From assembly GCA_021232515.1 (NCBI GenBank), contig JAJPOQ010000002.1, forward strand, positions 1 to 64,000: DNA of 64,000 bases. Reading direction: 5' to 3'. The position numbers and the translations under genes are program-made. This DNA comes from Lentisphaeraceae bacterium (GTDB lineage: Bacteria; Verrucomicrobiota; Lentisphaeria; Lentisphaerales; Lentisphaeraceae). The notes beneath the pieces were generated by a model, which saw nothing but the letters and a program-made list of their open reading frames with translations, made no database searches and was not told the DNA's origin. Of the stretch, positions 1,577 to 19,954 are shown piece after piece; position 1 is the first letter of the stretch, and every line of letters starts with the position of its first letter.

Positions 1577-1608
1577 CCATAAAATAGATTTTTTTTGAAA
1601 TTTACAGT

Positions 1609-1634
1609 AAAGGTTCATTATCCTCGATTGTTAC
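1609..1634 (+). promoter_or_regulatory. Bipartite promoter-like element, copy 2 (no ORF downstream)
   Basis: AAAGGTT (1609-1615), 14 bases, GTTAC (1630-1634). The second half differs from the consensus GTTCC by one base. The next feature downstream is not a gene but a CA tract and terminator. Confidence 0.45.
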
Positions 1635-1635
1635 C

Positions 1636-1750
1636 ATATATAAGAAGCAACTGAACTTATCAAAGTTCATATAAGTCTTCAAACATTCTCAACACACACA
1701 TACCACACACACACGAATAAAAGCCGGCTGTCCAGCCGGCTTTTATTTTA
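1636..1750 (+). ncRNA. Candidate small RNA, unit 1
   Basis: Predicted only from layout: a promoter-like element ends at 1634, a weak hairpin (ACTTAT with ATAAGT) lies at about 1654-1675, a CA tract at 1691-1714, and the transcript would end at the terminator near 1750. There is no start codon with a ribosome site and no ORF of useful length. Boundaries are approximate and no known RNA family was recognised. Confidence 0.3.
1719..1748 (+). terminator. Strong terminator of mini-unit 1
   Basis: An 11-bp perfect stem (1719-1729 with 1734-1744) with GC-rich core GCCGGC and a 4-base loop, flanked by A run and T run, so it could act in both directions. Confidence 0.8.
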
Positions 1751-1796
1751 TATATAGACTTGAAACTAAAATAGAAACTTTATTCAGAAAGTCAGT

Positions 1797-1822
1797 AAAG
1801 GTTCACTATCCTCTATTGTTCC
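1797..1822 (+). promoter_or_regulatory. Bipartite promoter-like element, copy 3 (no ORF downstream)
   Basis: AAAGGTT (1797-1803), 14 bases, GTTCC (1818-1822), a perfect match to the consensus. The surrounding bases closely match those around copy 2, so the unit is a duplication. Confidence 0.5.
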
Positions 1823-1828
1823 ACTATA

Positions 1829-1922
1829 TGAAGCAACTAAAATTGCCTCAGTAGATTTATTCTACACTCACACACACACGCAAAAATCGGGAATAGACGA
1901 AAGTCTATTCCCGATTTTTTTT
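1829..1922 (+). ncRNA. Candidate small RNA, unit 2
   Basis: Layout as in unit 1: promoter-like element, a small hairpin (GTAGA, TTTAT loop, TCTAC at about 1850-1864), a CA tract at 1865-1879 and a very strong terminator. No ORF. The 5' end is a guess from the position of the element. It could instead be a gene remnant. Confidence 0.3.
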
Positions 1923-1923
1923 T
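1883..1923 (+). terminator. Very strong terminator of mini-unit 2
   Basis: A perfect 16-bp stem (1883-1898 with 1903-1918) capped by GAAA and followed by a run of T to 1923. It lies upstream of the next gene's own element, so it separates the unit from the gene at 1987. Confidence 0.85.
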
Positions 1924-16028: not shown

Positions 16029-17483
16029 TTATTGGGCTAGTTCTCTTATTTGTACTGGCGTCAATGCTTTTCTAAAGATACGCAAGTCATCTATTTCACC
16101 GGCAAATGGTCTCGATGTTGGATCTCCAGGGTTACCGCCAATCCAAACTGGTTTTGAGCCATTGCGATTTATATTTCCAGTCTTAGCTTCACGTGATATT
16201 TCTTTACCATCTAGATAAAGAATCATTGCTTTCCCATCATAAACTGCGGCAACATGAATCCACTCGCCTACTTTCAAATCCTGTGGATCTGAAATTAAGA
16301 TACTAGTTTTATCACTAGTAGTTAAACGGAAGCGAATACCGTGACCATCCCCAGACGGATAAGGACTCAACATAAATACATGATGAAGGCCTTTAGTTTT
16401 ATTTGGTGTGACTTTAGAAATAATGCGACCTTCTCCACTTAATCCCTCAAGTGTGCGAATTTTGATCCAGCTAGATATAGTCATGACATTTGAGTTTACA
16501 TCAAACTTTCCGGCATCGACATAATCATCTATACCGTCAAAAGTTAGAGCACCTTTTCTTTTGCCTAAAACTCTCTTAGCGCCATGGATAATGGCATCAT
16601 TACCATGTTCAGATACATCTTCGGCAACATCTCCGAAACCACGGTCAAAATCCCAGAAAGCGACATAGTTATTGCTGTTTGGTACTCTTGATCGACTCAA
16701 GAACCTTTTATGATTTGCATCGGCATATTCTCGTTTATTCACCAAGACCGTTTTTTGATCTGAGTGACGTATATACTCAACTCGGCCTTCATAAACATCT
16801 AATCGCGAGTGGTGGTCACTCTTCGATACTTCTAAAACTGTACCTAAAACTCTTGCTGTAGATTTCGCAGTATGAACTAACAACGGATCGCCAGCTTTCT
16901 GCTTTATAACATCCAGGTGTACATGACCAGTTTCCAGATGAATACTTTTCGTACTCGTTCCTTTATTTAAAGTCATAAGAGAGTCTGAAGAAAGTTTAAC
17001 TAAAGTACCGTCTGTATAATTCATATAAACACGAGAACCTTCTCCCGTTTTTATCTGGTCCCCGAGTGAAAGCACGTCGCCTTTTTTCACATTTGCGCTA
17101 TTGCCATAAACTTTTTCAACAACTAAACGATCATAGACAATACTGTCTACTGGTCCTTGTTTTCTTAGCAGGACAAAAGCAAAAATGATCGATGCGGCTA
17201 TGGCAACACCAATCCAAGGCAGAACTACAGGAGCTTTCTTTTTCTTCTTACGAGAAACCCGACTCAGTTTATTTGTCTTGATCTTCTTTTTAACTGTCTT
17301 TACTTTTTGAGACTTCTCTTGTTCAAAGACATCCAACAAAGTTGCTTCTTCGTGCATAAAGTCTACCAAACGAGCCCGATTTATAGGGTCTTCCAAGTAG
17401 ACCTCGAGCTCTCTAACTTCTTCTTCAGTAATATCCCCGGAACTGAATGCAAGAAGTAAATCTTCTAAGCGTTCATCAATCAT
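16029..17483 (-). CDS. FecR-domain membrane protein with C-terminal LamG domain (putative anti-sigma factor)
   Basis: The start is set at MIDERLEDLL (17483); the ORF runs 47 codons further, but that part overlaps the sigma gene in another frame. The 484-residue product has a soluble N-terminus resembling anti-sigma regions (1-60), a basic KKKKK stretch and one membrane helix (about 90-108), a FecR domain (about 135-245, with GDQIKTGEGSRVYMNYTDGT and RLDVYEGRVEYI) and a Laminin-G/concanavalin-like domain (about 280-484, with LTFDGIDDYVD, GEWIHVAAVYDG and FAGEIDDLRIF). The layout suggests sensing of an outside glycan and control of the sigma factor, whose stop overlaps this start (ATGA). Confidence 0.8.
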   Translation of the reverse strand: MIDERLEDLLLAFSSGDITEEEVRELEVYLEDPINRARLVDFMHEEATLLDVFEQEKSQKVKTVKKKIKTNKLSRVSRKKKKKAPVVLPWIGVAIAASIIFAFVLLRKQGPVDSIVYDRLVVEKVYGNSANVKKGDVLSLGDQIKTGEGSRVYMNYTDGTLVKLSSDSLMTLNKGTSTKSIHLETGHVHLDVIKQKAGDPLLVHTAKSTARVLGTVLEVSKSDHHSRLDVYEGRVEYIRHSDQKTVLVNKREYADANHKRFLSRSRVPNSNNYVAFWDFDRGFGDVAEDVSEHGNDAIIHGAKRVLGKRKGALTFDGIDDYVDAGKFDVNSNVMTISSWIKIRTLEGLSGEGRIISKVTPNKTKGLHHVFMLSPYPSGDGHGIRFRLTTSDKTSILISDPQDLKVGEWIHVAAVYDGKAMILYLDGKEISREAKTGNINRNGSKPVWIGGNPGDPTSRPFAGEIDDLRIFRKALTPVQIRELAQ

Positions 17484-18007
17484 ATGCCGGCCTCCTCCAA
17501 CCGAACCAAAATACATTTCCTCAGTGCTTTTCGTATACGACTCATTAGCATTTTTACCGAATCCGTGGACTTCCCGAACTTCTCTCCAATAGTCTTCATG
17601 TCCATACTTTTCGAATAACGGCACTTAAGCAAGCTGCGATTGTTTTCAGGTAAATTCCCTAAACACTTTCGCAGTGCATCTCTATTGGCGGAGTGACGAG
17701 CTTCTTCTTCTGTACTTTCTTCAAAAGCTTGTTCTACAAGGTCCAGTATATCACTGTTTACTAAAACCTTATCTCGACGATTCGATCGCCAAAACTGCAA
17801 AACTCGGTTTCTTGCAACGCCACGACACCAACGGTCTAATTTATCGATAACTACATCTTTTTCTTGAGCCTTTGAAAACTGGAGCCATACATCTTGAAAT
17901 ATGTCATCTGCAACGGAACTATCTCTTACCATGCCATAAATATAGGCCGTTAAAGAATGCCGTTGCGAGATAAACTCTAAAGATAATTTTTCCCAGTCTG
18001 AACTCAT
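17480..18007 (-). CDS. ECF-type sigma-70 factor
   Basis: The 175-residue length is typical of ECF factors. Region 2 lies at about 15-75 (LTAYIYGMVRDSSVADDIFQDVWLQF, then WCRGVARNRVLQFWR) and region 4 at about 110-168 (LPENNRSLLKCRYSKSMDMKTIGEKFG with a helix-turn-helix ending in MSRIRKALRKC). It resembles the Rhodopirellula/Verrucomicrobium ECF family (TIGR02989) that is common in PVC bacteria. The partner is the membrane FecR/LamG protein downstream. Two different bipartite elements lie in its upstream region, consistent with self-regulation, which is inferred. Confidence 0.9.
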   Translation of the reverse strand: MSSDWEKLSLEFISQRHSLTAYIYGMVRDSSVADDIFQDVWLQFSKAQEKDVVIDKLDRWCRGVARNRVLQFWRSNRRDKVLVNSDILDLVEQAFEESTEEEARHSANRDALRKCLGNLPENNRSLLKCRYSKSMDMKTIGEKFGKSTDSVKMLMSRIRKALRKCILVRLEEAGI

Positions 18008-18032
18008 ACTCTTCCATATTAATTACCTCTTT

Positions 18033-18058
18033 GTTCCCGGAGGAAGGCAAAGGTAACA
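18033..18058 (-). promoter_or_regulatory. Bipartite element, TGTTACC/GGAAC type, before sigma gene
   Basis: Minus strand: TGTTACC, 14 bases starting TTTGCC, GGAAC, 25 bases before the ATG. Confidence 0.45.
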
Positions 18059-18101
18059 GTCATTTTTGAAATTATTTTGATTTTTTTTCCTCTCGACTAG
18101 T

Positions 18102-18127
18102 GGAACAAAGGAAAATGGGCAACCTTT
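18102..18127 (-). promoter_or_regulatory. Bipartite element, AAAGGTT/GTTCC type, before sigma gene
   Basis: Minus strand: AAAGGTT, 14 bases, GTTCC, a perfect match to the pseudopilin-type element. It lies 94 bases before the ATG and upstream of the TGTTACC-type element. Confidence 0.5.
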
Positions 18128-18209
18128 ACTTGGTTAGTATGATCAAATGAATAATAAGCTCAGTTACGATCAAATAAATAAGATTCACAAAAGCTAAGCC
18201 TTGAGTAAT

Positions 18210-18235: not shown

Positions 18236-18257
18236 ACTCTAAAAAAATAGTGTGGAT

Positions 18258-19079
18258 ATGAAAAAATTTACTTTAATTGAGCTTCTCGTCGTCATCGCAA
18301 TATTTGGAATACTGCTAACTCTGCTTTTGCCATCTCTACAAAGTGCCAGAAAGAAAGGCTTCACTACTGTTTGTATAAGCAATACTCGACAAATAACTAC
18401 TGGGAATCAGTTATTCAGTGCAGACAATAATAATGCTATTGTCAAAAGTTATTTTCGCGCCGACGGTTTTTATTGGGGTTGGCACTACAGCCTAGAAGAA
18501 TACTTAGGTAGTTCCTTCGCAAGTGACCGAAATGCCGACATTCCTTCAGAATCAACAAATATTGGCTACTGCCCAGCTTTCCATGATCTCACGTTTCAGT
18601 ATGTAAAACCCGGAGTTACAGTTTCACAATCGCCTCAATTTGGCTATGACTCTAAAAGAACTCCCAGCACAACACAACTGCGTTACCTTAGTTATGGAAT
18701 TAACGAATTTCTGAGTAATGAACTCATGCTACCAGCAGGATTCCCTGGAAACGGCCTAGGCTTTAGCGGGGATTGGTATAATCAAAACATGAAAAACACA
18801 AAGTTAACTCAAGTCGATTACCCTAGTGAGACAATGCTTTTCACTGAAACCTACCAATTCGAGAAACTTTCAAAGTGGAGCCGAGCATACTTTAACCCAA
18901 ACCACGACTCTTCTGTACCTTACTCAAGAGTTGATGGTAGTGCAACAGTCTTGAGATATAGCTCAATTACTAATGATGGAGTTGGTGTGGGTTCATCTGG
19001 CAATAAAATTCGAAATAGTTTAAGTGAAAAAGAGATACGACTTTGGGGAGCTTCTATAAGTCCAAATTTCGACAATTAG
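18258..19079 (+). CDS. Prepilin-type N-terminal domain protein with H-X9-DG motif
   Basis: The ATG at 18258 (MKKFTLIELL) is chosen over the in-frame GTG at 18252, matching the exact start of the paralogues; GTGTGG lies just before it. The 273-residue product has the prepilin cleavage motif, a hydrophobic helix, a conserved mid-region (YLSYGINEFLSN, GFPGNG) and an intact H-X9-DG (NH, eight residues after the His, then VDG). It forms a tandem pair with the next gene; the two share upstream sequence as well as coding sequence, so they arose by duplication. It is divergent from the sigma operon. Confidence 0.85.
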   Translation: MKKFTLIELLVVIAIFGILLTLLLPSLQSARKKGFTTVCISNTRQITTGNQLFSADNNNAIVKSYFRADGFYWGWHYSLEEYLGSSFASDRNADIPSESTNIGYCPAFHDLTFQYVKPGVTVSQSPQFGYDSKRTPSTTQLRYLSYGINEFLSNELMLPAGFPGNGLGFSGDWYNQNMKNTKLTQVDYPSETMLFTETYQFEKLSKWSRAYFNPNHDSSVPYSRVDGSATVLRYSSITNDGVGVGSSGNKIRNSLSEKEIRLWGASISPNFDN

Positions 19080-19117: not shown

Positions 19118-19138
19118 AATCTTTAAAAACGGTGTGAT

Positions 19139-19954
19139 ATGAAAAAATTTACTTTAATTGAACTTCTCGTCGTCATCTCAATTTTTGGAATACTCTTAAC
19201 TCTCCTATTACCGTCTATAGCTAATGCAAAGAAAAAAGGTTACACGGCGATCTGCCTAAGTAATCTGCGCCAAACTTCTATTGGTAATCAATTATTTAGC
19301 GTCGATAACAACGGCGCTATCGTAAAAACTTATTATAAGTCTGCTGCCTTTTACTATGGGTGGGACTTAAGCCTTGAGAAATACCTTGGCGAAAGCTTTA
19401 CCAGTCCTCGAAACAATACCTCGCCTCCAAATCCGAACGATGTAGGTTACTGCCCTTCTTACAACGATTTAAGTTTTCAATATGTTAAGCCTGGTGCCAG
19501 CGCTCTTCAAAAACCTAGCTTCGCAAAAGATGGCAATAAATACACCAGCTCACATACGAGTCGATATAGAAGTTATGGCATCAATGAATTTTTAAGTAAC
19601 TCACTTATGCTTGGTGCTGGTTATCCCGGAAATGGCAAAGCAAATAACGGTTCCTGGTACGATATGAATGTTAAGAATATAAAAATGGCTCAAGTTGACT
19701 ATCCCGGTGAAACCATGCTTTTTAGCGAAATCTATAATTCCCAAAAACTAGTAAAATGGAGTAAAGCCTACTTTAACCCAAATCATAGTAACTCTGCACT
19801 TTACAGTAAGATCGATACTAGTGCAGGCGTTATGAAGTATAGCTCAATCATCAACGATGGCATAGGCGTCAACTCTACAGGAAATGGAATTCGAAATGGC
19901 TTAACTCCTGAAGAAATACGCTTTTGGGGAGCTTCTAGCAGTCCTCGTTTTTAA
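19139..19954 (+). CDS. Prepilin-type N-terminal domain protein, H-X9-DG variant
   Basis: Product of 271 residues with FTLIELLVV at the N-terminus and strong similarity to the preceding gene. In the C-terminal motif the glycine is replaced: His, nine residues, then DT instead of DG. The rest (RSYGINEFLSN, AGYPGNG, YFNPNH, RFWGASSSPRF) is kept, so the gene is probably functional but divergent. A GGTGTG stretch is the likely ribosome site. The stop is only three bases from the convergent DUF1552 gene. Confidence 0.85.
   Translation: MKKFTLIELLVVISIFGILLTLLLPSIANAKKKGYTAICLSNLRQTSIGNQLFSVDNNGAIVKTYYKSAAFYYGWDLSLEKYLGESFTSPRNNTSPPNPNDVGYCPSYNDLSFQYVKPGASALQKPSFAKDGNKYTSSHTSRYRSYGINEFLSNSLMLGAGYPGNGKANNGSWYDMNVKNIKMAQVDYPGETMLFSEIYNSQKLVKWSKAYFNPNHSNSALYSKIDTSAGVMKYSSIINDGIGVNSTGNGIRNGLTPEEIRFWGASSSPRF

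Follow-up and report, generated by a model that had tools for sequence, protein, structure and literature searches.

In E. coli the small RNAs RybB, MicA and MicL are dependent on sigma-E, an arrangement in which an ECF sigma factor lowers, by way of sRNAs, the synthesis of envelope proteins. GcvB carries a GU-rich seed, R1, and its CA-rich targets are situated at ribosome-binding sites (PMC3879156). FopS of Bacteroides thetaiotaomicron is a multi-copy family whose sRNAs combine a single-stranded seed with a terminator; members are intergenic or derived from 3' UTRs and act near the start codons of surface-system mRNAs, and the family involves the RRM protein RbpB and has been deposited in Rfam (PMC11697453). 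In the Lentisphaera lineage the genomes are very rich in pseudopilin genes without an assigned use, and a full-text search for Lentisphaera together with sRNA returned no papers devoted to sRNAs in this lineage.

The window, meaning the whole stretch of 64,000 nucleotides that was analysed, is contig C151 of a 5.26-Mb genome in 177 contigs, whose source we take to be an uncultured marine Lentisphaerota bacterium. Near its start two pseudopilin-like genes of the plus strand, pilin 1 (721-1521, with an N_methyl motif slightly under the Pfam cut-off) and its downstream neighbour pilin 2 (1987-2793), which are 55% identical, enclose two gene-less stretches, unit 1 (1605-1750) and unit 2 (1793-1921). 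Both units have the same build, as a sequence-only reading of this DNA had described it and at the positions it gave: a bipartite element, a CA tract and, last, a terminator of great stability. In both, GAAGCAACT follows the element. We consider it likely that the two units are transcribed as small RNAs. Our main reading, to which we give a probability of roughly 45%, is more complete: the units would be tandem small-RNA genes, paralogous to each other and driven by an ECF sigma factor, with a CA seed directed at the GU-rich starts of surface-protein genes.

Each unit would yield an RNA of approximately 95-110 nt with a conserved 5' end and a small hairpin, in which a CA tract stays unpaired ahead of a strong intrinsic terminator. 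It would start just 3' of TTGTTACC/TTGTTCC and end at approximately 1750 in unit 1 and 1922 in unit 2; the predicted RNAs are of ~108 nt (1642-1750, with the start placed about 7 nt past the right box) and ~93 nt (1829-1921), both on the plus strand. The CA tracts (1691-1715 and 1863-1881) are predicted to be single-stranded, and are followed in unit 1 by a terminator hairpin with a T-rich tail (1716-1750) and in unit 2 by a GAAA-loop terminator with a T tail (1882-1923). The earlier reading was right in calling these terminators very stable, but its stems of 11 and 16 bp were too short, the hairpins being stronger with about 15 bp in unit 1 and 17 bp in unit 2. Folding of the predicted transcripts from 1640 (unit 1) and 1826 (unit 2) to the terminator ends gave z-scores of -8.4 and -10.4, respectively, and none of 200 shuffles folded equally well. 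No ORF of at least 40 aa was found in either unit, and the sole micro-ORFs, of 8 and 12 codons with a TTG start within the element, are not conserved from one unit to the other. BLASTn against the own genome and 60 relatives found no homologues of the units, giving only self matches, inverted matches of the hairpins and chance-level matches, and no Rfam match above the gathering score was obtained for the window region or for 13 other loci.

The bipartite element has the form CAGTAAAGGTTC-N7-TCTATTGTTCC and precedes unit 1 (1605-1641), unit 2 (1793-1829) and pilin 1 (669-698) on the plus strand. The two 37-nt copies of the units are 86% identical and the shared GAAGCAACT comes directly after them; a weak and degenerate copy lies before pilin 2, at about 1932. 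The element is no chance occurrence: across the 5.26-Mb genome the pattern AAAGGTTC-N8..18-TGTTCC has three sites, and two of these are in the window (pilin 1 and unit 2), whereas the reversed control has none. The third site looks like a chance match, with another spacing and with neither a pilin nor a CA tract nearby. A weight matrix was built from the three window copies, of which that of pilin 1 scores 30.4 bits, and was run with 30 dinucleotide shuffles as controls. A single additional site, on the minus strand at 18131-18102, stood well clear of all others; it scores 22.9 bits against a shuffle maximum of 20.7, again has a spacing of 7 nt and beats all 30 shuffles. No comparable site was present in 131 kb of other sequence from the same genome.

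This fourth element ends 95 nt upstream of a gene encoding an ECF-type sigma factor of 175 aa with regions 2 and 4 (Sigma70_r2 and Sigma70_r4; 17480-18007, minus strand), and the gene of a FecR/LamG-domain protein, its partner, comes next (16029-17624, minus strand, the true start being probably further in). This sigma factor and FecR/LamG operon (16029-18131) adjoins two sister pilin genes, with start codons at 18258 and 19139, and points away from both. ECF sigma factors often recognise a promoter upstream of their own gene. With an equally spaced copy standing in front of an ECF sigma gene, the simplest view is that the element is the promoter which that sigma factor reads. The identical motif, at a fixed spacing before the sigma gene, the units and pilin 1, is the sequence signature that an ECF regulon would leave, and probably the element is the promoter of the ECF factor at 18.0 kb, with pilin 1 and units 1 and 2 as its candidate regulon. 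As judged by the shared motif, the factor would transcribe each unit, and from the same promoter it would also drive pilin 1 and, by autoregulation, its own gene. The right half of the element (TGTTCC or TGTTACC) is found upstream of five of 29 pilin genes, where 0.4 would be expected, and its carriers include pilin 1 and both pilin genes beside the sigma gene.

The 3' end of the units, the CA tract plus terminator, has a distribution of its own. Pilin 1 has at its 3' end (1526-1573) a CA-rich stretch (1526-1542) followed by a hairpin of 12 bp with a GAAA loop (1546-1573), and the earlier description of this gene as ending in a CA tract and a GAAA-loop terminator stands, with the qualification that the T tail right behind the hairpin is poor. 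The string CACACACACACG is present three times in the genome, twice in the window and once on another contig (C33), where it runs straight into a terminator. The module was seen about 25 times in the own genome and many times in the sister species (the same-genus relative G001), against none at 37 sampled CA tracts of Lentisphaera marina, all genome-wide counts coming from pattern searches. Among the tracts fetched from the own genome, a terminator-like hairpin directly follows CACACAC[A/G] in 18 of 84 cases, against 1-4 at shifted offsets or antisense, and the stem begins 0-8 nt after the tract. An automatic classification of tracts of at least 8 nt, which does not count units 1 and 2 as they lie outside its central zone, assigned a terminator to 13 of 72 tracts in the own genome, 11 of 37 in the sister species and 0 of 37 in L. 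marina. Further cases were sought with a covariance model, R1, made from nine training sequences brought into register, in some of which spacer or loop bases had been cut to make them fit. A score of at least 34.6 bits is reached by 14 sites in the own genome and 6 in the sister species, and by a single site in the 38 other genomes combined; when the training sequences are left out, the two species have 7 and 5. Unit 1 scores 39.8 bits, unit 2, itself a training sequence, 45.3 bits, and the end of pilin 1 19.6 bits. The strong covariation within the R1 alignment was discarded as evidence: it is circular, the sequences having been picked for pairing and not all being homologous. Because both the tract counts and the R1 matches concentrate in two species, we regard the CA tract plus terminator as a trait of this genus, and we are confident that the 3' end of the units is a functional module of it.

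Roughly one half of the cases listed stand at the end of an mRNA, no more than 60 nt past the stop codon, and the other half are stand-alone (about a dozen units). The mRNAs concerned include those of DUF1501, DUF1552-like, cytochrome c and TIM-barrel proteins, pilin 1 and others. The module shares with ordinary intrinsic terminators the G+C-rich perfect stem, the short loop (often GAAA or TTCG) and the T tail; it differs from them in the CA tract 0-8 nt upstream, often with ATTCTY before it, and in its restriction to this genus and to some transcripts only. We ruled out that the tract is a general property of terminators, as most of those in the window lack it. We also considered whether it could encode a leader peptide, CAC ACA being read as His-Thr; this was rejected because no ORF runs across the tract in units 1 and 2 and because at this place the reading frame is not the same in the two C33 copies. 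Our search found no relevant literature on CA tracts preceding terminators.

Some other occurrences of the module were recorded. On C33 (L069, G000:C33:19251-22262, minus strand, locus ~1860-1150) there is a second tandem gene-less array, with convergent genes on either side and three CA-tract terminators, two of which belong to repeats that are 90% identical and lie about 280 bp from each other. A gene beside this array encodes a leucine-rich-repeat-like C-terminus weakly similar (E 3e-6) to the window gene 2-661. In the sister species, three CA-terminators (C10:1548, C10:3421 and C141:4098; L276, L074 and L431) have in common 70-97 nt of upstream sequence, 91-96% identical, where a small ORF may end (...VGFTDELYSS.KIL.KEN). 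At L138 (G000:C12:19468-20268, locus ~400) CCCCTCACACACAGGGG places the CA tract inside the hairpin loop; a further CA tract lies nearby, and read on the GT strand this one stands before the start of a gene for an exported protein. Beyond the genus, R1 has a strong match in one genome only, that of a class relative, G037, with 12 matches in total, among them C127:35241 (35.9 bits) and C44:8869 (32.8 bits).

In the genomes searched no orthologue of units 1 and 2 was found, and four other module members could be compared between the own genome and the sister species. At C8_38/C7a, where the upstream proteins are 89% identical, stem pairing is kept through a double change from C-G to U-A, and at C8_34/C7b (91%) it is kept through two changes. 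At C43/C47 (61%) the stem is entirely replaced and the CA tract is retained. The fourth, C14/C228, is a stand-alone unit in a conserved intergenic position, with tract and terminator 84% identical over 82 nt and a diverged spacer upstream of the tract. The compensatory changes for which the sequence-only reading had proposed to look in the stems of units 1 and 2 were therefore sought in these four members: pairing survives substitutions in three, and the fourth, C43/C47, departs from it by its new stem. Within the own genome, the tandem C33 pair shows stem differences that preserve pairing as well. As orthologous members keep pairing or tract, selection on tract and hairpin is supported for the family; this evidence favours selection on the module as seen in members other than the focal pair. 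Judged by sequence, units 1 and 2 possess the attributes of sRNA genes, namely a promoter of their own, no ORF and an intrinsic terminator, and this view of them is well supported. The small-RNA alternative, one of two that had been offered for them, fits the promoter-like element, the lack of an ORF, the strong terminator, the tandem paralogy and the genus-wide stand-alone units, one of them at an orthologous site.

Candidate partners for the CA tract were found at gene starts. In the translation-initiation regions of the two genus species 16 tracts have the GU strand and 2 the CA strand, against 2 and 2 in L. marina (p 0.24 when compared against L. marina alone), an enrichment to be read with the low complexity and low specificity of the seed in mind and with some of the cases falling in signal-peptide codons. 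As judged from translations, the genes with GU starts are mostly those of pilins, DUF1549/cytochrome-like and other exported proteins. GTGTG lies 3-9 nt upstream of ATGAAAAA 7 and 12 times in the two genus species (2 and 3 in the reversed controls) and 2, 2 and 4 times in Lentisphaera genomes (controls 2, 2 and 1), and the sites inspected are mostly true gene starts in the genus, few being so in Lentisphaera. A GU pentamer precedes 9 of 45 pilin starts in the genus versus 3 of 94 elsewhere (p 0.002), in pilin sets that were not selected for it, and predicted duplexes between tract and pilin start reach -9 kcal/mol or better in 12 of 45 and 2 of 94, respectively. Two candidate targets are the sister pilin genes beside the sigma factor, both on the plus strand: that at 18250-19079 has GTGTG at 18250-18254 before the start codon at 18258 (duplex of -13.8 kcal/mol), and that at 19132-19954 has it at 19132-19136 before the start codon at 19139 (-10.9 kcal/mol). 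The start regions of pilins 1 and 2 themselves are not GU-rich. The pairing hypothesis arose on the same genome that supplied much of its testing, and we propose only tentatively, at somewhat less than even odds, that the CA tract serves as a seed directed at gene starts rich in GU.

A different reading of the tract is a protein-binding tag of 3' ends, by which, for example, a small RRM protein would stabilise or localise mRNAs and short RNAs with no pairing in trans, units 1 and 2 being sponges. The module is found on mRNA ends as often as on stand-alone units, the C43/C47 pair holds on to its tract through the replacement of the stem, and RRM proteins exist in both genus species and not in the one Lentisphaera genome tested, all of which suits a tag. 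Nevertheless RRM proteins are also present in the tract-less relatives G002, G006 and G007, and a tag leaves the GU tracts at gene starts unexplained. We hold this reading to be unlikely. RRM_1 proteins number two in the own genome (G000:C115:3583-3795 and G000:C98:38497-38700), one in G001, three in G002 and none in G003 (Lentisphaera).

Still less probable, in our view, is that the tract is a passive spacer, unpairable since it is made of A and C only, which helps the terminator to fold, the units being short transcripts with no role in trans or leader attenuators of pilin 2. This would agree with the position of the tract 0-8 nt upstream of the stem and with the end of the unit 2 terminator 64 bp short of pilin 2. 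However, a folding aid of this kind is dispensed with by most terminators in the window; the sequence is CACACA and not any unpaired mixture of A and C, and it is kept at orthologous sites and confined to one genus. For an attenuator, two full terminators in series would be unusual, and the one element that pilin 2 has for itself is weak.

The other alternative of the earlier reading, gene remnants, here of tandem pilin genes that kept promoter and terminator and lost the body, is very improbable. Pilin 1 does have the same element and a similar 3' end, and pilins flank the units on both sides, but tblastn found no pilin coding similarity in them (best E ~0.7, in a tiny database), and the likeness between their 5' ends does not extend to the 5' UTR of pilin 1. 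The units have kept stems that differ from each other and are both perfect, and stand-alone units exist elsewhere away from pilins, one of them conserved between species.

We therefore return to the reading as tandem small RNAs under an ECF sigma factor. The CA tract plus terminator would be a 3'-end module which both stand-alone RNAs and some mRNAs carry, and the tract would pair with translation-initiation regions rich in GU, on the mRNAs of pilins and other exported proteins, so that an active sigma factor would most likely mean less translation of those mRNAs. A broader extension, which we regard as doubtful, would be a CA/GU code across the genus, in which mRNA 3' ends and stand-alone RNAs carry CA, the mRNA starts of exported proteins (pilins, DUF1549/cytochrome-type) carry GU, and the synthesis of surface proteins is tuned in trans. 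If the main reading is right, the Lentisphaera lineage gains definite sRNA genes, a candidate regulon for a sigma factor and a seed that can be predicted.

Among the known systems, RybB, MicA and MicL are alike in that an ECF sigma factor would drive sRNAs lowering envelope-protein synthesis; they differ in sequence, targets and promoter, and here the dependence on sigma is suggested solely by the shared motif. With FopS the likeness is one of organisation, a single-stranded seed plus terminator with intergenic and 3'-UTR members. The FopS seed, R1, is however 5'-terminal and conserved in sequence, whereas here a CA repeat stands directly before the terminator and the rest is variable, and the units gave no match to that Rfam family. 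GcvB of enteric bacteria resembles the units in its unstructured two-letter seed, applied at the ribosome-binding sites of many mRNAs of one functional class (PMC3879156). It differs in that the units are unrelated to it in sequence, are multi-copy and have a tract common to mRNA 3' UTRs; in place of a GU-rich R1 they have CA, and they gave no Rfam match above threshold. Because no Rfam match reaches the gathering score, membership in GcvB or FopS is not claimed. The polarity of GcvB is reversed, with CA-rich units and GU-rich candidate targets, and if our reading is right one repeat-like seed can, with this reversed polarity, serve both 3' UTRs and sRNAs.
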